In this document: piece by piece, positions 2,887 through 11,923 of the stretch
How the letters are laid out: each line of letters starts with the position of its first letter
How positions within the stretch are numbered: the first letter of the stretch is position 1
Source of the DNA: Pseudomonadota bacterium
Lineage (GTDB): Bacteria; Pseudomonadota; Alphaproteobacteria; Dongiales; Dongiaceae
Length of the DNA: 64,000 nt
NCBI GenBank assembly: GCA_016183985.1
Contig: JACPDN010000006.1
Span: 1,116,001-1,180,000, forward strand
Direction: 5' to 3'
Position numbers and translations under genes: made by a program
Notes under the pieces: model-generated
Databases searched by the model: none
What the model was told of the DNA's origin: nothing
Seen by the model: the letters and a program-made list of their open reading frames with translations, nothing else

Positions 2887-4122
2887 ATGATGTCGATGAT
2901 GACGGAAATCAAATCGGGCAGCCTCAACGCCAATCAGCCGCAGCGTCATGGCGGCCTGCCGGTCAGCCTGCCGGCCTGGGCCTATGCCAGCGACGAGCTC
3001 GCCGACCTCGAATACGAGCATGTCATCCTCCCCTCCTGGCAGTTCGTCTGCCACGTGTCGCAGGTGAAGAATCCCGGCGACTTCATGACGCTCGACATGA
3101 AGAAGGATTCGGTACTGGTCATGCGCGGCAAGGACATGGTGCTGCGCGCCTTCATGAATGTCTGCCGCCACCGGGCGGCGAAGCTGCTGAACGGCAGCGG
3201 CAATTGCCGCGCGCGCATCACCTGCCCTTATCACGGCTGGAGCTACGATCTCTCAGGCGAGCTCAAAGGCGTGCCGGCGGAAAAGACCTTTCCCGGCGTC
3301 GAGAAGGACAAGCTGGGCTTGAAGGAGATCGAGATCGAGATCCTCGCCGGCATGGTCTTCGCCCGGGTCATCGGCGGCGGCCCGACCTTGCGCGAGAGCT
3401 TCGGCGCCATGGCCGACATCGTCGACAGCTATCGGCTGGAGGAGATGGTGCCGGGCGGTGAGCCCTGGATCGATACCTGGGACTGCAATTGGAAGATCGC
3501 GGTCGATAATAACCTGGAGAACTATCACATCACGATCGGCCATCCCGGCCTCAACCGCATGTTCGACAGCGATTTGACCGGTGTCATCAACGAACATGGA
3601 ATCGCCTATAGCAAGAGCGTGCTCAAAGGCATTCCCTCGCCCAACCGGGCCGAGCGCATGTACCAGCATCTCGCCAAGAATGCCTTCACCCAGCTGCCCG
3701 AAGAGGCGCGCCGCACCTGGACCTTCTTCTCGCTGGCGCCGAATATCGGCCTCGACATCTATCCGGACAGCTTCGACATCTTCCAGATCCTGCCCCGGAG
3801 CGGCACGACCTGCGTCATGCGCTATCCCATCTATGTCCGCCCGGGCGCCAACCGGGAGGAGAAGGCGATGCAATACCTCAACGCCCGGATCAACCGCCAG
3901 GTGGGCCTCGAGGACCGGGAACTCTGCGAACGGGTGCAGGCCGGCATGGGTTCCCACGGTTACGAGCCGGGTCCGCTTTCCAATTACGAGCATGCGGTGT
4001 TAGATTTCCACAATCGGATTCGCGCCGCCTGCCCCGTCGTCAACGACGCCAAGGCGCCGGTGTCCGGTACGTTGCGGCAGCGTAACGACACTCTTCGCGG
4101 CGACACCCGGTCGGCGGCATGA
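2887..4122 (+). CDS. Rieske non-heme iron oxygenase, quaternary-amine type (choline/carnitine/betaine/stachydrine oxygenase-like alpha subunit)
   Basis: A 411-aa aromatic-ring-hydroxylating dioxygenase-type subunit. The Rieske [2Fe-2S] ligands are Cys93/His95 (VCRHR) and Cys113/His116 (CPYHGWSYD). The mononuclear iron site is in DNNLENYHITIGH, with His214 and His219. The bridging residue is Glu211, not Asp; Glu is what carnitine monooxygenase CntA has and marks the quaternary-ammonium group of Rieske enzymes. Such enzymes oxidatively demethylate or hydroxylate betaine-like substrates and need an electron-donating reductase, which is not encoded next to it. The start is the first of clustered ATGs behind GGAGTGGG. 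A BetI-like regulator and an acyl-CoA dehydrogenase follow on the same strand. The exact substrate is open. Confidence 0.88.
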   Translation: MMSMMTEIKSGSLNANQPQRHGGLPVSLPAWAYASDELADLEYEHVILPSWQFVCHVSQVKNPGDFMTLDMKKDSVLVMRGKDMVLRAFMNVCRHRAAKLLNGSGNCRARITCPYHGWSYDLSGELKGVPAEKTFPGVEKDKLGLKEIEIEILAGMVFARVIGGGPTLRESFGAMADIVDSYRLEEMVPGGEPWIDTWDCNWKIAVDNNLENYHITIGHPGLNRMFDSDLTGVINEHGIAYSKSVLKGIPSPNRAERMYQHLAKNAFTQLPEEARRTWTFFSLAPNIGLDIYPDSFDIFQILPRSGTTCVMRYPIYVRPGANREEKAMQYLNARINRQVGLEDRELCERVQAGMGSHGYEPGPLSNYEHAVLDFHNRIRAACPVVNDAKAPVSGTLRQRNDTLRGDTRSAA

Positions 4123-4194
4123 CCTGAAACCCGCACCGACATGGACGTCGATGCCTGGAAGCGCCTGCCGCCCTTGAAGGGGATTGGAACCGGC

Positions 4195-4833
4195 ATGAGC
4201 CGCGAATTGGCCAAAGAGGCTCGGCGCAGACAGCTTATCGAAGCCACCATCGACGGTATCGCCCGCAAGGGCTTTGCCGAATTGAAGATTGCCGATGTGG
4301 CGGCAGCGGCTGGTCTTTCGGTGGGCATCGTCAATTTCTATTTCAAGAGCAAGGATGCGCTGCTTATCGCGACCCTCAAGCATCTGGTCGAGGATTACGA
4401 GCAGCACATGCAGGGCATCCTTGCCCGTGCCGGCAAATCGGCCGCCGAGCAGATCGATGCCATGATCGAAGGGGATTTCGCCCGCACCCATGCCAACCGG
4501 AAGCATGTGACGGTCTGGTACGCCTTCTGGGGCGAGACGCGCTGGCGCCCGGAATTCCTGAAACTATGCGCCGATCTCTCGACCTCGTTCCAGAAATCGA
4601 CCGCCGCGAGTTTCCAGGCGCTGATCGACGAGGGCGGCTATCAGGGCCTTGATGCCGGGCTCATCGCCCGCGGCTTCAACGCCATGATCGACGGGCTGTG
4701 GCTCGACATGCTCCTCAATCCCAAGCAGACCGACCGCGATGCCGCCAAGGCCAGCGTCCGCGTGTTCCTGGCTGGCCTCTTCCCACGCGAATTCGGCGGC
4801 AAGGTCGCTGCCAACGGCAACGCCGCCGCCTGA
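4195..4833 (+). CDS. TetR-family regulator, BetI-like
   Basis: An N-terminal helix-turn-helix (IADVAAAAGLSVGIVNFYFKSKDALL) is followed by the BetI-type C-terminal ligand domain (HANRKHVTVWYAFWGETRWRPEF). BetI itself is the choline-responsive repressor of glycine-betaine synthesis; relatives control quaternary-amine catabolism. An in-frame ATG at 4141 has no ribosome-binding site, whereas AAGGGG lies well placed before the ATG at 4195, so the shorter 212-aa form is preferred. It sits 73 bases after the Rieske gene and probably regulates the upstream ATTGA/TCAAT palindromes. Confidence 0.88.
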   Translation: MSRELAKEARRRQLIEATIDGIARKGFAELKIADVAAAAGLSVGIVNFYFKSKDALLIATLKHLVEDYEQHMQGILARAGKSAAEQIDAMIEGDFARTHANRKHVTVWYAFWGETRWRPEFLKLCADLSTSFQKSTAASFQALIDEGGYQGLDAGLIARGFNAMIDGLWLDMLLNPKQTDRDAAKASVRVFLAGLFPREFGGKVAANGNAAA

Positions 4834-4855
4834 CCTTTCATTTCCGGAGCTTCCA

Positions 4856-6043
4856 ATGACCCTGCCCTTGCCGCCACGTGCCCGCGAGATCCAGGCGCGC
4901 GTCCGCGCCTTCGTCGATGCCGAGCTCATCCCTTGGGAGGTTCATGCCGAGATGCATGACGGGCTGGTGCCGGAGGATGTCTGGAAGCGGATGAAGGCCA
5001 AAGCCAAGGAAGCCGGGCTCGACAATATGGACATGCCGGTCGCGATCGGCGGGCGCGGCTATTCGACGCTCGAACAGGTCGTGGCGCAGGAACAGACGGG
5101 GCGCGTCACCAATGCGCTGGGCTGGTGCGCCAACAATCCACAGAAATGGATGCTGGAAGCCTGTTCACCGGCCCAGATCGAGCGCTGGATCAAACCGCTG
5201 ATGAATGATGAGCGGCATGAATGCTACGCCATCACCGAAGCCGAAGCGGGCTCGGATGTCGATGCGATCAAATCGACCGCGCGCCGGGTCAGTGGGGGCG
5301 ACGGCGATCATTACGTCCTCAACGGCGAAAAGTGGCATGTGACCAGCGCCAATCTTGCCGATTACATGTTCTTCCAGGCCAAGATCGAGGGTGGTCCCAA
5401 TGCCGGCGCCCATGCGCTGTTCTTCGTCGATCATGGGACACCCGGCGTCGAGATCGTGCGCACCCCGGCCTATACCCATAACTACCGCGCCCATCACCCG
5501 ATCTATCGCTTCACCGATGTGCGCGTGCCGGCGGACCACCTGATCGGCAAGGAAGGCGACGGCATGGGCTTCACCTATGCCTGGTTCCGCCATGAACGCC
5601 TGATGATCGCCGCACGCTGCTGTGGTGCGGCCGAACGGCTGATCGATGAAGCGACGGCCTTTGCCAAGCAGCGCATCGTCTTTGGCGCCGCTCTGGCCGA
5701 GCAGCAGGCGGTGCAGTTCATGCTGGCGGACAGCGTGACGGAGCTCTTCGCCGCCCGCCTCATGACGTATGAGACAGCGCGTGCGATCGACTCCGGCGCG
5801 GATATGAAGACAGCCCATGCGCAATGCAGCATGGCCAAGCTCTATGCCTCCGAGATGGCCGGCCGCGTCGCCGACCGCGCCGTGCAGATCTTCGGCGGCC
5901 GCGGCTATATGCGCGAAAACGTCGCCGAGCGGTTCTTCCGCGAACTCCGCGTCGACCGCATCTGGGAGGGGGCCAGCGAGATCCAGCGCATCATCATCGC
6001 CAACGGCCTGCTCAAACGCGGAACGCAGAGCCTGGTGGGGTAA
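4856..6043 (+). CDS. acyl-CoA dehydrogenase family protein
   Basis: A 395-aa FAD-dependent acyl-CoA dehydrogenase. The signatures are AITEAEAGSDVDAI (flavin/substrate binding), the C-terminal QIFGGRGYM loop and RIWEGASEIQR, whose Glu matches the catalytic base of medium-chain enzymes. The frame is open further upstream, but the ATG at 4856 follows a GGAG and matches the family N-terminus. It is 22 bases downstream of the BetI-like gene and so probably belongs to the same transcript. A dehydrogenation of a CoA-activated acid derived from an amine substrate (as in carnitine breakdown) would fit but is inference. Confidence 0.92.
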   Translation: MTLPLPPRAREIQARVRAFVDAELIPWEVHAEMHDGLVPEDVWKRMKAKAKEAGLDNMDMPVAIGGRGYSTLEQVVAQEQTGRVTNALGWCANNPQKWMLEACSPAQIERWIKPLMNDERHECYAITEAEAGSDVDAIKSTARRVSGGDGDHYVLNGEKWHVTSANLADYMFFQAKIEGGPNAGAHALFFVDHGTPGVEIVRTPAYTHNYRAHHPIYRFTDVRVPADHLIGKEGDGMGFTYAWFRHERLMIAARCCGAAERLIDEATAFAKQRIVFGAALAEQQAVQFMLADSVTELFAARLMTYETARAIDSGADMKTAHAQCSMAKLYASEMAGRVADRAVQIFGGRGYMRENVAERFFRELRVDRIWEGASEIQRIIIANGLLKRGTQSLVG

Positions 6044-6152: not shown

Positions 6153-6258
6153 AGGGAGAATTTACCCCCTGCCCTAGCCAAACCCCCAAGCCCCCAGCTA
6201 CAGTCCGCCTGCGACCGTTGGTCTTGGGGAGACGGCGCAATTGGCAGGGGTAATCAAC

Positions 6259-7536
6259 ATGCTTCAGGGCGTTTGGCGGGCGATGCAGCCGGTTCTGCCG
6301 GTCCTCATCGGCATCACGCTGATCGAGACGGCACTGGGCGTGCTGATGCCGCTTATCGGCATCCAGCTCTCGCGCTGGGGTGTCTCGTCGATCGTCGTGG
6401 GTATTGCCGCCTCGGCCTATTTCGTGGGCTTCCTGGCCGGCACCCTCTTCTGCCAGCGCATCATCAAGCGGGTCGGGCACATCCGCGCCTTCGGCGTCTT
6501 CGTCGTCCTGGCAGCGGATGCCACGGTGCTGCATCTCGTCATCCAGGACGCCTATTTCTGGATTCTCTTCCGCGCCATCGCCGGCTTCGCGCTGGCCGGC
6601 GGCTTCGTGGTGATCGAGTCCTGGCTCAACGACAAATCCACCGACGATACCCGCAGCAAGATCTTCGCCATCTACACGGCGGTGAGCTGGGGCGCTTCCG
6701 GCGTCTCGCCGCTGCTCCTCAACATCGATGACCCGACCGGTGTGCTGCTCTTTGCGCTCTGCACCGTCTGCATGGCGAGCGCGATGATCCCGCTGGGCCT
6801 CACCAAGATCGGCAATCCGGTCATTGCCGAGCATGTGCACCTCTCCATCCCGCGCCTCTTCAAGGCGTCGCCCTTGGGCGTCGTGTGCTGTTTCGGTGCC
6901 GGTTTCTTGAACGGCGCGCTTTACGGCCTGCTGCCCAATTACATCGATGGCCTTGCGATGGGGGAAAAGGAACTGTCCTTCCTGATCCTCATCGGCACCA
7001 TCGCGGTACTGCTGTCGCAATTCCCGATCGGCCATGCCGCCGACGTCTATGGCCGCCGCCCGATCATCATCGCGACCGTCGCGGCCTCGTGCCTGCTCTG
7101 CTTCATCATCTTTGCGACGCCGGAGCTCCCCTATATCTTTCTGCTCTGCCTCTTTTTCCTCCTCTCGGCCTTCCAATCGCCGCTCTATGCGCTGGGGATC
7201 GGCCAGACCAGCGACTATGTGGCGAAGAAGGAATTCGTCGCCGCCTCGTCCGGCCTGCTCTTTGCCTGGGGCCTCGGCGCCTCGATCGGGCCGTCGCTCG
7301 CCGGTGTCACGATGAACGAGATGGGGCCGCGCGGGCTGTTCCTGTTCGTGGGCTGCGGCTACGGCCTCATCGCCGCCTTCGCCCTCTATCGCACGCTCAG
7401 GCGCAAGGCCAAAACACCGGAGGAGCAGAGCAACTTCGTCGCCGTGCCGGCCGTGCAAGGCGCTTACGGTGCGCCGGAACTCGATCCCCGCGGCGAACAC
7501 ATGCCGCATGTCGGCGCAAGATCCATGCCGGATTGA
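6259..7536 (+). CDS. MFS transporter, 12 transmembrane segments
   Basis: A 425-aa hydrophobic protein with the major-facilitator layout of two six-helix halves. The cytoplasmic motif between helices 2 and 3 is FCQRIIKRVGHIR, and the matching one in the second half is HAADVYGRRPIII. It resembles the YcaD-like branch, whose substrates are poorly known. A TTG 18 bases upstream (6241) is also possible; the ATG at 6259 is preferred because AGGGG lies ~9 bases before it. It follows the Rieske/dehydrogenase block but is separated from it by a dispersed palindrome, so co-transcription is uncertain. Confidence 0.85.
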   Translation: MLQGVWRAMQPVLPVLIGITLIETALGVLMPLIGIQLSRWGVSSIVVGIAASAYFVGFLAGTLFCQRIIKRVGHIRAFGVFVVLAADATVLHLVIQDAYFWILFRAIAGFALAGGFVVIESWLNDKSTDDTRSKIFAIYTAVSWGASGVSPLLLNIDDPTGVLLFALCTVCMASAMIPLGLTKIGNPVIAEHVHLSIPRLFKASPLGVVCCFGAGFLNGALYGLLPNYIDGLAMGEKELSFLILIGTIAVLLSQFPIGHAADVYGRRPIIIATVAASCLLCFIIFATPELPYIFLLCLFFLLSAFQSPLYALGIGQTSDYVAKKEFVAASSGLLFAWGLGASIGPSLAGVTMNEMGPRGLFLFVGCGYGLIAAFALYRTLRRKAKTPEEQSNFVAVPAVQGAYGAPELDPRGEHMPHVGARSMPD

Positions 7537-7549
7537 GGCGGCACGCCTT

Positions 7550-8209
7550 CTACCGGCACAGCTCCTTGGCCACCTCGCAGGCGGGGTCCGAACCTGAGAA
7601 GCCCGGCACGGCGTCCTTCGATGTTTGCCAGGGCTTTGATGGCAGGTCCTGTAAGCCATCCATCCATGCCATGAGATCGAGATAGCCCGCCGGTACGAAA
7701 TCTCGCATCTGGGGAAACTCCCGCCATAAATCCCCGGCATAGACAGAAATGCCCTTGTAGGACACGCCATCTGGCCGCTGAAGGATAAGGTTTGCTGTAC
7801 CGGCGTCATAGATACAGTTGGCGGGTACACTTCGTCCGTCCTCGTCAACGCTCCAGCAATTGAAGCCATATGTCGGCGCTGCATTGGCAAGGCCGTCATA
7901 GAATTTTCGGAATCGCGCTTGCACAATATCGGCCGGGACGTTGATCATGCGCAGGTTGAGAGGCAAGCGCATCATCTGCGCGTCTGCTATCAACACCGTA
8001 CCGTCGCTGTAGATGGCGATACCAGGAACAGCCTTCAACACTCCACCCGGTTGGGCAAGAATGCTCATCCCGCCTGTGGCATATCTCGCCATCAGCAACT
8101 GGGCATCGGATGCCGGTAGCGGCTCATCCGCATGCGCAAAGGTGATTGCCACAACGACCGCCAATGCTGACGCGAGACCAAGATTTCGAAGCAACGAATG
8201 CACAGCCAC
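7550..8209 (-). CDS. exported hypothetical protein
   Basis: An unrecognised ~219-aa protein with a clear secretion signal: a short basic start, the hydrophobic stretch LGLASALAVVVAITF and a likely cleavage after AHA. The mature part has Cys in NCWSVD, NCIYD and CEVAKELC, which may form disulphides in the periplasm. The start is GTG; a second GTG at 8203 sits better behind GGTGAG. It begins 21 bases after the flavin-dehydrogenase stop on the same strand, so it may be its operon partner. No function can be assigned. Confidence 0.7.
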   Translation of the reverse strand: MAVHSLLRNLGLASALAVVVAITFAHADEPLPASDAQLLMARYATGGMSILAQPGGVLKAVPGIAIYSDGTVLIADAQMMRLPLNLRMINVPADIVQARFRKFYDGLANAAPTYGFNCWSVDEDGRSVPANCIYDAGTANLILQRPDGVSYKGISVYAGDLWREFPQMRDFVPAGYLDLMAWMDGLQDLPSKPWQTSKDAVPGFSGSDPACEVAKELCR

Positions 8210-8230: not shown

Positions 8231-10297
8231 TTACGACGTCGCCATCAGCGGCAAGGGCCGGCGGAATTTCACCTCGCCCATGTCGTTGGTGTCGAGTTCG
8301 CGGGCGTAGCGGTGGCCGCTATAGACGGCGTAGGCGATGAGGCCGGGGGCGAGGCAGTCGCCGATGCGGGTGACGGATTTGATGCCGGCATCTTTGAGTG
8401 CATCCGGATTGGCAATCAGCGACTGATAGAGCGCTTCTTCCGGCAGACGCGCCGTGACCGGCACGATCGCATCGACAGGGATGAATTCCGGGTCTTCGCC
8501 ATATGAATGATCGAGCTGTGCCACGCCGTCCTTCACCGCCACCAGATCGCGTGAGGGAATGACGCGGATGCCGAGCTTGCGCAAATGCTTGTTGATGACC
8601 AGGAGTTCGAGCGTGTTGGTGGTCCAGCTCGAGGCTGTGTCGCCGGTCGTCACATAGATGACCTTGAGGCCCGCCTTGGCGAGGCGCTCGGCCAGCACGC
8701 CGGCCAAGTAGAAGAGATCGTCGTCATAGACCAGGACCGTGCCGGAGGCCGGCAGCTTTCCCGCCATGATGTCGTCGGGCGAGAAAACACTGGCCTTGTC
8801 GAGGCCGGGGATCGGGTAGGCGTGCGAGCGCCCCACGCCATCGGCGCGCCAATGGCACCCCGTGGCGAGCACGACGCGCTCGAAGCCGTATTCGAGGATG
8901 TTAGCGGCGTCGAGGCGGCTGTCGAGATAGGTCTCGACATTGGTCATCTTAGCAATCTGGCCCAAGCGGTAGTCGCGCACGCGTCCCCAGGCGGAAAGAC
9001 CCGGCAGACGGGATTCCTTGTTCACGCGGCCGCCGAGTTCGGTCGAGCTTTCGGCGAGTGCCACGTCGTAGCCGCGCAGGCCCAGTGCGCGGGCGGCTTC
9101 GAGGCCGGCCGGGCCACCGCCGACGATGAGCACGCGGTCGTTCGAGGCCTTCGGCGTGATCAGTTCCGGGTGCCAACCCTTGCGCCATTCCTCGCCCATG
9201 GTCGGGTTCTGGGTGCAACGGAGCGGCGTGATGGTGTAATCGCCCGAAACGCAGATATTGCAGCCGATGCATTCGCGGATGTCTTCGAGGCGGCCTTCCT
9301 CGATCTTCTTTGGGAGGAACGGATCGGCGATCGATGGCCGCGCCGCACCGATCATGTCGAGCACACCCTTCTTGATCAGCGAGACCATGCGGTCGGGCGA
9401 GGTGTAGCGCCCCACCCCCACCACCGGCTTGGTGGTCAGCGTCTTAACGAAGGCCGTGAACGGTTCCTGGAAGCCTTCTTCCGAGAAGCGCGAGGTCTGG
9501 CTGTCATATTTCCAGGTCGAGAGGTTGACGTCCCAAAGATCGGGGAGTTCCGCCAGCATGGCGACGATGTCGCGCGCCTCGCCATCCGAAGCGATGCCGT
9601 CCTTCCCCATCATCTCATCGACGGCAAAGCGCACGGCAACACCGCAGGTATCGCCCACGGCGGACTTCGCATCCTCGATCACTTCGCGGAACAGGCGGAT
9701 GCGGTTCTCGAGGGAGCCGCCATACTCGTCGATGCGCTGGTTGCGGCGCTTCTGCAGGAAATGCATCGGCATGGAGAGATCGTGGCCGGCATAGACATAG
9801 ACGATGTCGAAGCCCGCTTTCTTGGCGCGAATCGCGGCGTCGCGATGCCAGCGGCGATAATCACGGATGTCCTGCCGGTCCATGGCGCGGGCCTGGAACG
9901 GATAATAGCTCGTCGGCTGATGCACCGGGCCGATCGGCACCTCGCGGCTGTAGAGGTTGGAGGCGGACGGGCCGTTATGGACCAGTTCCACCGCCGCCAG
10001 CGAGCCATGACGATGCACCGCCTCAGTCATCATGGAGAGATAGGGGAGATCATGTTCGTCCCAGATGCGCGCCTCGACATAGGGCGTCACATCGCCACTG
10101 GGATGGATCTCGCATTCCTCGGTCGAGACGACAGCCCAGCCGCCTTCGGCCTTCATGCCGCGCATGGCGGCATGGCCATGCGGGTGCTGGTGGCCCATGC
10201 CGTTGCAATGCGGCACCTGGAAGAAGCGATTTTTGGCCGTGACCGGGCCGATTTTTACCGGCTCGAACAGGATATCGTAACGTGGGTCGCGGGCCAT
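8231..10297 (-). CDS. trimethylamine-dehydrogenase-family FMN/[4Fe-4S]/NAD(P)-fold oxidoreductase (amine demethylase-like)
   Basis: A 688-aa protein with an N-terminal old-yellow-enzyme barrel, an iron-sulphur motif and two nucleotide-binding domains (VLIVGGGPAGLEAARALG at ~395). Cys31 in QVPHC matches the cysteine that links FMN covalently in trimethylamine dehydrogenase. Tyr169, His172 and Asp265 match its catalytic residues, and Cys343/346/349/361 match its [4Fe-4S] ligands. From my memory of that enzyme, two of three aromatic-bowl residues that bind trimethylammonium differ: Tyr60 becomes Glu61 and Trp355 becomes Asp353. This argues against trimethylamine and for another amine, such as dimethylglycine, N-methylproline or histamine. 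Relatives DgcA and StcD act downstream of Rieske demethylases. Confidence 0.9.
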   Translation of the reverse strand: MARDPRYDILFEPVKIGPVTAKNRFFQVPHCNGMGHQHPHGHAAMRGMKAEGGWAVVSTEECEIHPSGDVTPYVEARIWDEHDLPYLSMMTEAVHRHGSLAAVELVHNGPSASNLYSREVPIGPVHQPTSYYPFQARAMDRQDIRDYRRWHRDAAIRAKKAGFDIVYVYAGHDLSMPMHFLQKRRNQRIDEYGGSLENRIRLFREVIEDAKSAVGDTCGVAVRFAVDEMMGKDGIASDGEARDIVAMLAELPDLWDVNLSTWKYDSQTSRFSEEGFQEPFTAFVKTLTTKPVVGVGRYTSPDRMVSLIKKGVLDMIGAARPSIADPFLPKKIEEGRLEDIRECIGCNICVSGDYTITPLRCTQNPTMGEEWRKGWHPELITPKASNDRVLIVGGGPAGLEAARALGLRGYDVALAESSTELGGRVNKESRLPGLSAWGRVRDYRLGQIAKMTNVETYLDSRLDAANILEYGFERVVLATGCHWRADGVGRSHAYPIPGLDKASVFSPDDIMAGKLPASGTVLVYDDDLFYLAGVLAERLAKAGLKVIYVTTGDTASSWTTNTLELLVINKHLRKLGIRVIPSRDLVAVKDGVAQLDHSYGEDPEFIPVDAIVPVTARLPEEALYQSLIANPDALKDAGIKSVTRIGDCLAPGLIAYAVYSGHRYARELDTNDMGEVKFRRPLPLMATS

Positions 10298-10414
10298 GGT
10301 CTTCCCCCTGCCTTAGATATGGGTATGCGGGTTGCGGGCGGACTTTAGACGCGCCGCCGAGATGGACGCAAGCCATGCTTTCCGGCTATTTTCTGCCTTT
10401 CGCCCTCTCGACAA

Positions 10415-11923
10415 ATGTCTGATGAAATGAAGAAGAAACTGGCAGTTGCGCGGCTGTGGTATGAGGGTAATTCCTTTTCGCCCATCACCACCGACCTCGA
10501 TATTTTCCAAGCACGCGAGTGGGTCGAAGGCGACGCGGCCTTGGCCGTGTACCGCGATACCGCAACGGAAATGGGCGCGGTCATCGCCTTTGCCGATGCC
10601 CATGACGATTGGGAGGTCACGTTCCTGCGGTGCACCGCCGCACCGCCCGGCGGGCCGGTCACGGATTCAGCCTTTGCCGTCATCCGCGGCGACATTCTCG
10701 ATGGTCTGCAACGGCAGAAATGGGATGCAGTCTATCTGTCGCTCCACGGCGCCATGATCACCAACGGTAACCCGACGCCGGAGCTTGATCTGCTGCGCGA
10801 CGTACGCGGTGTCATCGGCAAGACGCCGCTGGCTGCCACCTTCGACCTTCATGCCAATATCGGTCAGCCGATGATCGATCTGGTCGATATCGCCATCGGC
10901 TACAAGACCTATCCCCATATCGACATGGACAAGGTCGCCGCCCGGGCCCTCGACCTGCTCGACCAGATGGTGCAAGGCAAGGTGAAGCCGGTCGGCGCCA
11001 TCGCCAAAGTGCCGGCGATCTATACCAGCTTCAACATGCGCACGACCGACGGGCCGATGGCGGAGATGGCAGCGGCCGCCGCCAAATGGCGCGCCGAAGA
11101 AGGTGTGCTCGAAGCAACCGTCTTTGGCGGCTTTGCCTATGGCGATTCCCCGTTTGCCGGCCCCACCGCCATGGTCTTTGCCGACGGTGACCGCATGCTG
11201 GCGCAGCGCGCCGCCAAGGCGCTCGCCGCGGACATGGCAGCACGGCGCGAGCGCTTCGCCCTCAAGCTGCCAAGCGCCGTGGAGGCGATTGCCGAGGCGT
11301 TGCAGACCAAGGGAGACAAGCCGGCAGCGATCACGGATCCGGCCGACAACCCGCTATCGGGTGGGATCGGCGATACGCCGACCTTGTTCCGGGCCTTGCT
11401 GGAGGCGAAGCCGGATGTGCCTTGCGTCTTCGGCTTCTTCTGGGATCCCGATCTTGTGATGGAAGCGCGACGCGCCGGTGTGGGTGCAAAGCTGGATGTC
11501 GCCTTCGGGGGCCGCGTCAGTGCGGCCTTCGGCAAGCCGGTCCGCATCAGCGCCAAGGTTCTGGCGCTCACCGACGGCAAATTCCGCAATGTGGGGCCAT
11601 TCGAAAACAACTTTGCCATCGACGTCGGCAATACTGCGATGTTCGATGTTGAGGGTATCAAGGTGATCGTGACGTCAAGCTGTCAGACCCCCAACGATCC
11701 GGCCTATTTCACGCTGCACGGCATCAACCTTGCGGAGGTAGGATTGCTTTGCGTCAAGGCAAAAAACCACTTCCGCGCGGGCTTCGCGCCGCTCACACGC
11801 ACAATCATCGAATGCGACGCGCCGGGACCGGCTGCCGCTTCACTGCAGCATTATCGTTTTCGCTACATCCCGCAGGGCGTCGTGCAGTCCTTCAGCGAAT
11901 ACGGCGTACGGACGCCAAATTAG
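10415..11923 (+). CDS. M81-family metallopeptidase, MlrC-like
   Basis: A 502-aa protein of the MlrC/DUF1485 family. It begins with the typical LAVARLWYEGNSFSP and has the conserved SLHGAM and ATFDLHANI motifs, which carry likely zinc ligands, and ends with the family C-terminal domain (TSSCQTPNDPAYFTLHGINL). MlrC is known for the last step of microcystin linear-peptide breakdown, but most homologues sit in amino-acid or amine catabolic clusters with no known substrate. It is divergent from the trimethylamine-dehydrogenase-like gene with 117 bases between. Its stop overlaps that of the EAL gene on the other strand. Confidence 0.9.
   Translation: MSDEMKKKLAVARLWYEGNSFSPITTDLDIFQAREWVEGDAALAVYRDTATEMGAVIAFADAHDDWEVTFLRCTAAPPGGPVTDSAFAVIRGDILDGLQRQKWDAVYLSLHGAMITNGNPTPELDLLRDVRGVIGKTPLAATFDLHANIGQPMIDLVDIAIGYKTYPHIDMDKVAARALDLLDQMVQGKVKPVGAIAKVPAIYTSFNMRTTDGPMAEMAAAAAKWRAEEGVLEATVFGGFAYGDSPFAGPTAMVFADGDRMLAQRAAKALAADMAARRERFALKLPSAVEAIAEALQTKGDKPAAITDPADNPLSGGIGDTPTLFRALLEAKPDVPCVFGFFWDPDLVMEARRAGVGAKLDVAFGGRVSAAFGKPVRISAKVLALTDGKFRNVGPFENNFAIDVGNTAMFDVEGIKVIVTSSCQTPNDPAYFTLHGINLAEVGLLCVKAKNHFRAGFAPLTRTIIECDAPGPAAASLQHYRFRYIPQGVVQSFSEYGVRTPN

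Follow-up and report, generated by a model that had tools for sequence, protein, structure and literature searches.

A predicted amine dehydrogenase of the histamine dehydrogenase branch with an acidic, clade-wide substrate pocket, encoded near Rieske oxygenase and peptidase genes in a Dongia-like alphaproteobacterium

The window analyzed here (the whole 64,000-nucleotide stretch of contig JACPDN010000006.1, positions 1,116,001 to 1,180,000 of the forward strand) comes from a Dongia-like alphaproteobacterium and carries, at positions 8231–10297 on the minus strand, an intact open reading frame (ORF) that starts with ATG, has no internal stop, and encodes a protein of 688 amino acids. Sequence, Pfam, and fold matches identify this target protein as a flavin mononucleotide (FMN)/[4Fe-4S] amine dehydrogenase of the trimethylamine dehydrogenase (TMADH)/histamine dehydrogenase (HDH) family, and sequence comparison places it in the HDH branch of the family, nearer to HDH than to TMADH. 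Its clade has a combination of pocket residues that is distinct, conserved, and, as far as could be seen, uncharacterized, within a known family and without amounting to a new kind of enzyme; among the literature matches listed, a partial collection, the clade is not named in titles or the opening lines of abstracts. Considering the pocket together with the neighboring genes, we propose, with slightly better than even confidence, that the protein is a soluble HDH-branch amine dehydrogenase whose substrate is cationic but is neither trimethylamine nor histamine, and that this amine would be made by a module of Rieske oxygenase and peptidases.

When the full-length protein was compared with the PDB by phmmer, the HDH structures 6DE6 and 3K30 scored 825 (E-value 4.8e-247) and 814 bits, respectively, 6L6J (HisD, a 6-hydroxypseudooxynicotine amine oxidase according to the structure listing) 752 bits, and TMADH (1DJN) 566 bits (E-value 9.4e-169); with such E-values chance similarity is of no concern. 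Pfam detected an Oxidored_FMN domain (residues 10–336) and a C-terminal domain of the pyridine-nucleotide type, and no model in the NCBIfam scan exceeded its cut-off. The structure predicted by AlphaFold, for which 51 of the 57 selected rows were used as input together with the window protein, had a mean pLDDT of 91.1 and a pTM of 0.90. It superimposed on HDH 3K30 with a Z value of 59.9 (root-mean-square deviation 1.6 over 676 residues), and values of 58.5, 58.5, and 58.1 were obtained with TMADH (2TMD), HDH 6DE6, and HisD 6L6J. Five TMADH/HDH family structures fitted the model at Z 57.6–59.9 over 666–685 residues, values that are too similar to rank the relatives of the protein. An earlier note on this DNA had proposed a superposition on TMADH, and at the level of the fold 2TMD is matched over its full length. 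The same note described the gene as a TMADH homolog with a rebuilt substrate pocket, which was right as to the family and has to be corrected as to the branch (825 and 814 bits with HDH versus 566 bits with TMADH) and as to Asp353, which corresponds to HDH Asp358.

In the TMADH family, FMN oxidizes the carbon next to the nitrogen of the amine, and electrons pass one at a time to the [4Fe-4S] cluster and then to an external acceptor. The residues behind this chemistry are kept in the target, as the earlier note had read from the sequence: in phmmer and MAFFT alignments Cys31, Tyr169, His172, and Asp265 correspond to TMADH Cys30, Tyr169, His172, and Asp267, and the Fe-S cysteines Cys343, Cys346, Cys349, and Cys361 were invariant in a 52-row alignment. 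Cys31 (positions 10205–10207, minus strand), which aligns with TMADH Cys30 at the position of the covalent 6-S-cysteinyl-FMN link, and the other cofactor and catalytic residues were invariant in all 57 non-redundant members of the target clade, query included. The cluster region spans positions 9215–9271 of the minus strand and contains the codon of Asp353 (9239–9241). The FMN-linking cysteine, the Tyr/His/Asp triad, the four Fe-S cysteines, and the full-length fold that mark the TMADH/HDH family are thus all present.

TMADH holds its substrate in an aromatic bowl of Tyr60, Trp264, and Trp355. At these positions the target has Glu61 (10115–10117, minus strand), Trp262 (9512–9514, minus strand), and Asp353. 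Glu61 pairs without gaps with Tyr60 in all alignments (phmmer, MAFFT, and hhalign), as the earlier note had it. The pairing of Asp353 with Trp355, which that note also claimed, is alignment-dependent, hanging on the placement of a one-residue gap: profile-profile alignment by hhalign sets the two residues against each other, and each lies 4 residues after the third Fe-S cysteine, whereas phmmer and MAFFT set Trp355 against a gap and Asp353 against Glu356. The further claim that only the tryptophan of the bowl remains held: Trp262 lies at TMADH Trp264. The pocket is acidic.

The earlier note mentioned a similar loss of the bowl in HDH, and this agrees with the histamine sites listed as proposed for the Nocardioides simplex enzyme in PMC10180351: Gln65, Ile74, Phe77, Glu79, Asn115, Tyr181, Trp267, and Asp358. 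The target has Glu61, Val70, Tyr73, Glu75, Ser111, Leu174, Trp262, and Asp353 at these eight sites. With HDH (3K30 from N. simplex and 6DE6 from Rhizobium sp. 4-9) it thus shares the full-length fold, the FMN cysteine, the four Fe-S cysteines, and the equivalents of Glu79, Trp267, and Asp358, and it differs in the pocket by Gln65 to Glu61, Phe77 to Tyr73, Asn115 to Ser111, and Tyr181/Phe176 to Leu174, as well as in its tree group and gene neighborhood. In its nearest solved relatives, therefore, Glu61 stands for a glutamine (Gln65 in N. simplex, Gln60 in Rhizobium) and not for a tyrosine. Glu75 (10073–10075, minus strand), at HDH Glu79/Glu74, is a third pocket acid, and Asp353 aligns without gaps with the documented HDH pocket residue Asp358/Asp354; a saturation library at Rhizobium HDH Asp354 yielded only unsubstituted active clones, according to PMC10180351. 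HisD (6L6J; fold Z 58.1) and NdpC resemble the target in having Glu at the Tyr60 position, Leu174, and Trp262, and differ from it in having Ala at the FMN cysteine, Asp at position 75, and Val at position 353. The nicotine enzyme Pno is 46–48% identical to HDHs and binds one FMN and one [4Fe4S] cluster, as reported in PMC5500553. TMADH (1DJN/2TMD) shares the fold, the catalytic triad, and the cofactor residues and has Tyr60 and, subject to the alignment, Trp355 where the target has acids. HpbA from Paracoccus, annotated as an N-methyl-L-proline demethylase, is a distant homolog over most of the length (about 24% identity) in which neither the FMN cysteine nor the pocket letters are kept. A shift of preference from trimethylamine to a substrate with more cationic or hydrogen-bonding groups, as first suggested from the sequence, is a reasonable expectation.

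We followed the pocket letters through 170 rows that were non-redundant at 99.5% identity and included the query, the four solved references, and HpbA; the rows were fetched by similarity to the query and are biased to its close relatives. Glu61, Glu75, Trp262, and Asp353 together with Cys31 were present in 101 of the 170 rows and were the commonest state of the sample. The four pocket letters were found in 57 of 57 target-clade members, and Glu61 in 24 of 24 members of a second, rhizobial and rhodobacterial clade. Because the changed letters are clade-wide, we rejected the reading of the gene as a TMADH whose pocket was rebuilt here alone. The two acids that the earlier note had presented as new are both present, and they are not new: Glu61 occurs also in HisD and in whole clades, Asp353 is shared with HDH, and the third acid, Glu75, had been missed.

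On a quick IQ-TREE tree of the FMN/Fe-S region of 84 rows, in which 36 of 81 inner branches are open, the query branched with Dongiaceae, Kiloniellaceae, and Xanthomonadales-type members, all of them with E61/E75/W262/D353, and fell outside the HDH group (support 93 for the HDH group and 84–86 for the groups of the target). TMADH and three other rows were split off by a branch with support 100. Members were assigned to clades by their nearest tree row, which gave an HDH group of 13 (HpbA excluded), two of which are the solved references. Both HDH references grouped with a paralog encoded in the same genome as the target (G000:C9), which scored 1203 bits against 6DE6, with 81% identity over the 403 columns compared, versus 825 bits for the target. 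Because the genome has this separate ortholog, which groups with the Rhizobium HDH, the target is unlikely to use mainly histamine; that it is its genome's histamine dehydrogenase was rejected as unlikely, and by sequence it is probably not that enzyme.

The genome contains two further close paralogs besides the target and C9. The third paralog (G000:C13:600055-602103; L122 8541-10607) has Tyr61, Val262, and Asn353 and adjoins a gene for an MttB-family trimethylamine methyltransferase. Elsewhere, two or three genes of the target family with differing pocket letters stand in tandem arrays (L090 8001-14205, L053, L056, L058, L071, L076, L077, and L082), and the arrays in L077 and L090 adjoin Pot-type ATP-binding cassette (ABC) transporters and BetI-type regulators. 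Four close paralogs with different pockets in one genome form a natural test set for the selection of amines by this fold.

The gene neighborhood connects the target with Rieske oxygenases that bear signatures of the quaternary-ammonium type. Among quaternary-ammonium Rieskes, according to PMC7948474, position 203 separates group Va, with an aromatic residue (carnitine, choline, benzalkonium), from group Vb, with Asn (glycine betaine, stachydrine). The window encodes a GbcA-like Rieske oxygenase (2887–4122, plus strand), for which GbcA is the best NCBIfam model, under its cut-off, and in whose motif DNNLENYH the residues at CntA positions 203 and 205 are Asn and Glu; the same motif occurs in Dongia relatives. 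It thereby carries the residues of group V, a bridging Glu205 with an aromatic residue or Asn at position 203. In the set of 31 Rieske rows lying closest to genes of the target clade (some genomes are counted twice), every row had the motif D-N-[F/Y/N]-x-E-x-Y-H-x4-H, with Glu at the CntA E205 position throughout and, at position 203, Asn in Dongia and an aromatic residue elsewhere. In 10 Rieske rows nearest to other family members, the bridging residue was Glu in five and Asp in five. The Xanthomonadales-type Rieske has CntA, a carnitine monooxygenase, as its nearest solved relative, with a score of 171 bits along most of its length. Some quaternary-ammonium Rieskes have a Cys-x-x-Cys pair, as described in PMC10952381, and the Rieskes of L017, L018, and L141 show a CntA-like pair of this kind.

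Context was counted in 132 loci whose flanks totaled 9 kb or more (shorter ones were left out), copies at 99.5% identity or more being merged. Of the 47 target-clade loci, 23 had a Rieske gene within 8 kb, versus 8 of the 85 other loci (Fisher p = 7e-7, without correction for descent). Peptidases of the M81, S9, M38, or S58 families were found in 24 of 47 target-clade loci versus none of 85 others, a descriptive figure only, since the families were picked from the neighbors of the target. In the window, an M81/MlrC-like metallopeptidase gene (10415–11923, plus strand; Pfam DUF1485 and MlrC_C, far under the NCBIfam MlrC cut-off) is divergent from the target. This gene is kept near the target in most of the Dongiaceae genomes searched: within 150 bp in 7 of 13 (G000-G003, G005, G006, and G009, where the frame holds one stop), at about 0.7 kb in G004 and also in G012, where a NUDIX-cluster ORF intervenes, and at 8–12 kb in G007, G010, and G011; G008 gave no M81 match. 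Of the 12 testable genomes, 10 (G000, G002-G008, G010, and G011) have a PF00848 Rieske no more than 10 kb from the target and two (G009 and G012) do not, the contig of G001 not allowing the count; these genomes carry 4 to 22 PF00848 matches each. In Xanthomonadales and their allies, the most complete arrangement runs from peptidase S9 through Rieske, amidohydrolase, and APC permease to the target, and it occurs in many variant or reduced forms. The amidohydrolase exceeds the cut-off of the NCBIfam 'Xaa-Pro dipeptidase' model and has the L-arginine carboxypeptidase Cc2672 as its nearest solved relative, and an S58 peptidase is also among the target-clade neighbors. In four of the 47 target loci, all from other Dongiaceae (L140, L141, L142, and L145), an oligopeptide-type ABC operon (SBP_bac_5, permeases, and a fused ATPase) lies directly upstream of the target in the same direction.

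The remaining genes of the block in the window are a BetI-type TetR regulator (4141–4833, plus strand; over the PRK00767 cut-off and under that of TIGR03384), an acyl-CoA dehydrogenase family protein (4739–6043, plus strand), and a major facilitator superfamily (MFS) transporter (6241–7536, plus strand), the last two being near the target in many Dongiaceae loci. A 219-amino acid protein whose N-terminus resembles a signal peptide by eye is encoded at 7550–8209 on the minus strand, 21 bp downstream of the target and on its strand; it had no Pfam or NCBIfam match and clustered in the context set with one other locus only (L014). At 694–2543 on the plus strand, a sugar-kinase-like ORF and an overlapping ORF resembling pseudouridine-5'-phosphate glycosidase, both recognized by eye, are possibly a pseudouridine salvage pair, which likewise stands beside the block in L012, L014, and L147.

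The sequence, model, tree, and locus comparisons establish the family, cofactor residues, fold, pocket letters, clade, and gene neighborhood of the target. From these we infer the reaction type, the class of substrate, the order of the steps, and the union of the neighbors in one pathway as follows. A precursor would be handled by peptidases (M81 in Dongia; S9, S58, and the arginine-carboxypeptidase-like amidohydrolase in Xanthomonadales) and by the quaternary-ammonium-type Rieske, yielding the amine; it is because of the gene neighborhood that the substrate is placed downstream of these enzymes. The target, predicted to carry covalent FMN and one [4Fe-4S] cluster, would dock this amine over FMN in a pocket of Trp262 and the carboxylates Glu61, Glu75, and Asp353, and the lining of the site by one tryptophan and three carboxylates leads us to expect a cationic substrate. 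The amine would then be oxidized at the carbon beside the nitrogen, by oxidative deamination or N-demethylation, between which the sequence cannot decide, and electrons would exit via the [4Fe-4S] cluster to an external acceptor. Genes for electron-transferring flavoprotein (ETF) are present in the genome. TMADH Val344 and Tyr442, which we take to be surface positions in contact with ETF, are Glu342 and Arg439 in the target, and Glu342 is also found in HDH and HisD, so that ETF is no more than a candidate acceptor. A more specific version, which we regard as unlikely, is that the clade serves an undescribed catabolic pathway for basic amines, quaternary or methylated and derived from peptides (those of the trimethyllysine or homostachydrine type, for instance), in which peptidases would release the compound, a group V Rieske would open the quaternary ammonium, and the target would oxidize the resulting cationic amine.

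Several observations weigh against the proposed role. The supports of the target and HDH groups (84–86 and 93) are only moderate on the quick tree. Two members of the HDH group, L160 and L195, of which L195 is the sister of N. simplex HDH (support 98), have E61/E75/W262/D353, so that by sequence Glu61 is no peculiarity of the target clade, and Gln at HDH position 65 may not be strictly defining. The target itself keeps three of the four residues Gln65/Glu79/Trp267/Asp358, with Glu61 for the glutamine. (The L195 gene, at 8453-10816, lends itself to comparison as a natural example of the Gln/Glu switch.) In Dongia, four genes stand between the target and the Rieske, which are on opposite strands. 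Rieskes with a bridging Glu are found beside some members of other clades (L058, L090, L091, L133, and L187), and two other Rieskes of the target's own genome (L199 and L202) share this residue; the letter is therefore no specific marker. The window Rieske scores 132.7 bits on the GbcA model, against a cut-off of 670, and ties 3-phenylpropionate dioxygenase (113.8 bits) with CntA (113.6 bits), in its N-terminal half only. The loci are kin by descent, so their counts are not independent, and the peptidase contrast is circular, the families having been chosen from target-clade neighbors. No Rieske was found in 24 of 47 target loci by the scan, which undercounts (the L141 Rieske was dropped for its overlap with an over-extended target ORF, and that of L140 lies at the edge of the stretch), and nine of the 47 had none of the neighbor families tested. 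Finally, the Dongia neighbors (M81, acyl-CoA dehydrogenase, and MFS) differ from those in Xanthomonadales (S9, S58, M38, and APC), as does the letter at position 203, so that no single substrate fits all.

The alternative that survives best, which we nevertheless hold unlikely, is that the target is an HDH-like biogenic-amine dehydrogenase that deaminates primary di- or polyamine cations (agmatine, putrescine, cadaverine, or histamine), with the Rieske and the peptidases as bystanders. Its pocket matches the HDH pocket in Glu75, Trp262, and Asp353, with a more acidic character, and the four letters recur in the HDH-group members L160 and L195. HDHs oxidize agmatine and putrescine, as reported in PMC10180351, and an APC permease whose best NCBIfam models are polyamine and arginine/agmatine antiporters, all under cut-off, is beside the target in 14 of 47 target loci (Xanthomonadales-type). 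Against this, a PotF-type polyamine binding protein was detected in 5 of 9 HDH-group loci and in 0 of 47 target loci, an HDH ortholog is already present in the genome, and the enrichment of Rieske genes is left unexplained.

By analogy with the pairs GbcA/DgcA and Stc2/StcD, the target could instead be an N-demethylase of a tertiary amine arising from a Rieske-demethylated betaine, for example dimethylglycine, N-methylproline, or N-methylpipecolate, which we consider distinctly improbable. StcD of Sinorhizobium meliloti is an N-methylproline demethylase, according to PMC12239276. The group Vb-like Rieske (Asn203) and the BetI-type regulator of Dongia are in line with this idea, as is a DAO-type enzyme near other Dongiaceae targets (5 of 47 loci), for which the best NCBIfam model is L-pipecolate oxidase, under its cut-off, and no solved relative was found at an E-value of 1e-20. 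Three pocket carboxylates, however, should repel the carboxylate of such a substrate, and the annotated N-methylproline demethylase HpbA is, as noted, only distantly related. A trimethylamine or dimethylamine dehydrogenase with an altered pocket is very improbable, since, although the fold, cofactor residues, and triad are those of TMADH and trimethylamine is released by CntA and other Rieskes of group Va (PMC7948474 and PMC10952381), all 57 target-clade members lack two of the three bowl aromatics and the TMADH group is set apart by its fully supported branch.

FMN/[4Fe-4S] amine dehydrogenases are known for few substrates, namely trimethylamine, dimethylamine, histamine, and a nicotine intermediate. 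The existence of a conserved branch whose pocket differs, and which is repeatedly linked to genes for peptidases and quaternary-ammonium-type Rieske oxygenases, suggests that soil bacteria degrade methylated or cationic amines through a step that has yet to be assigned.

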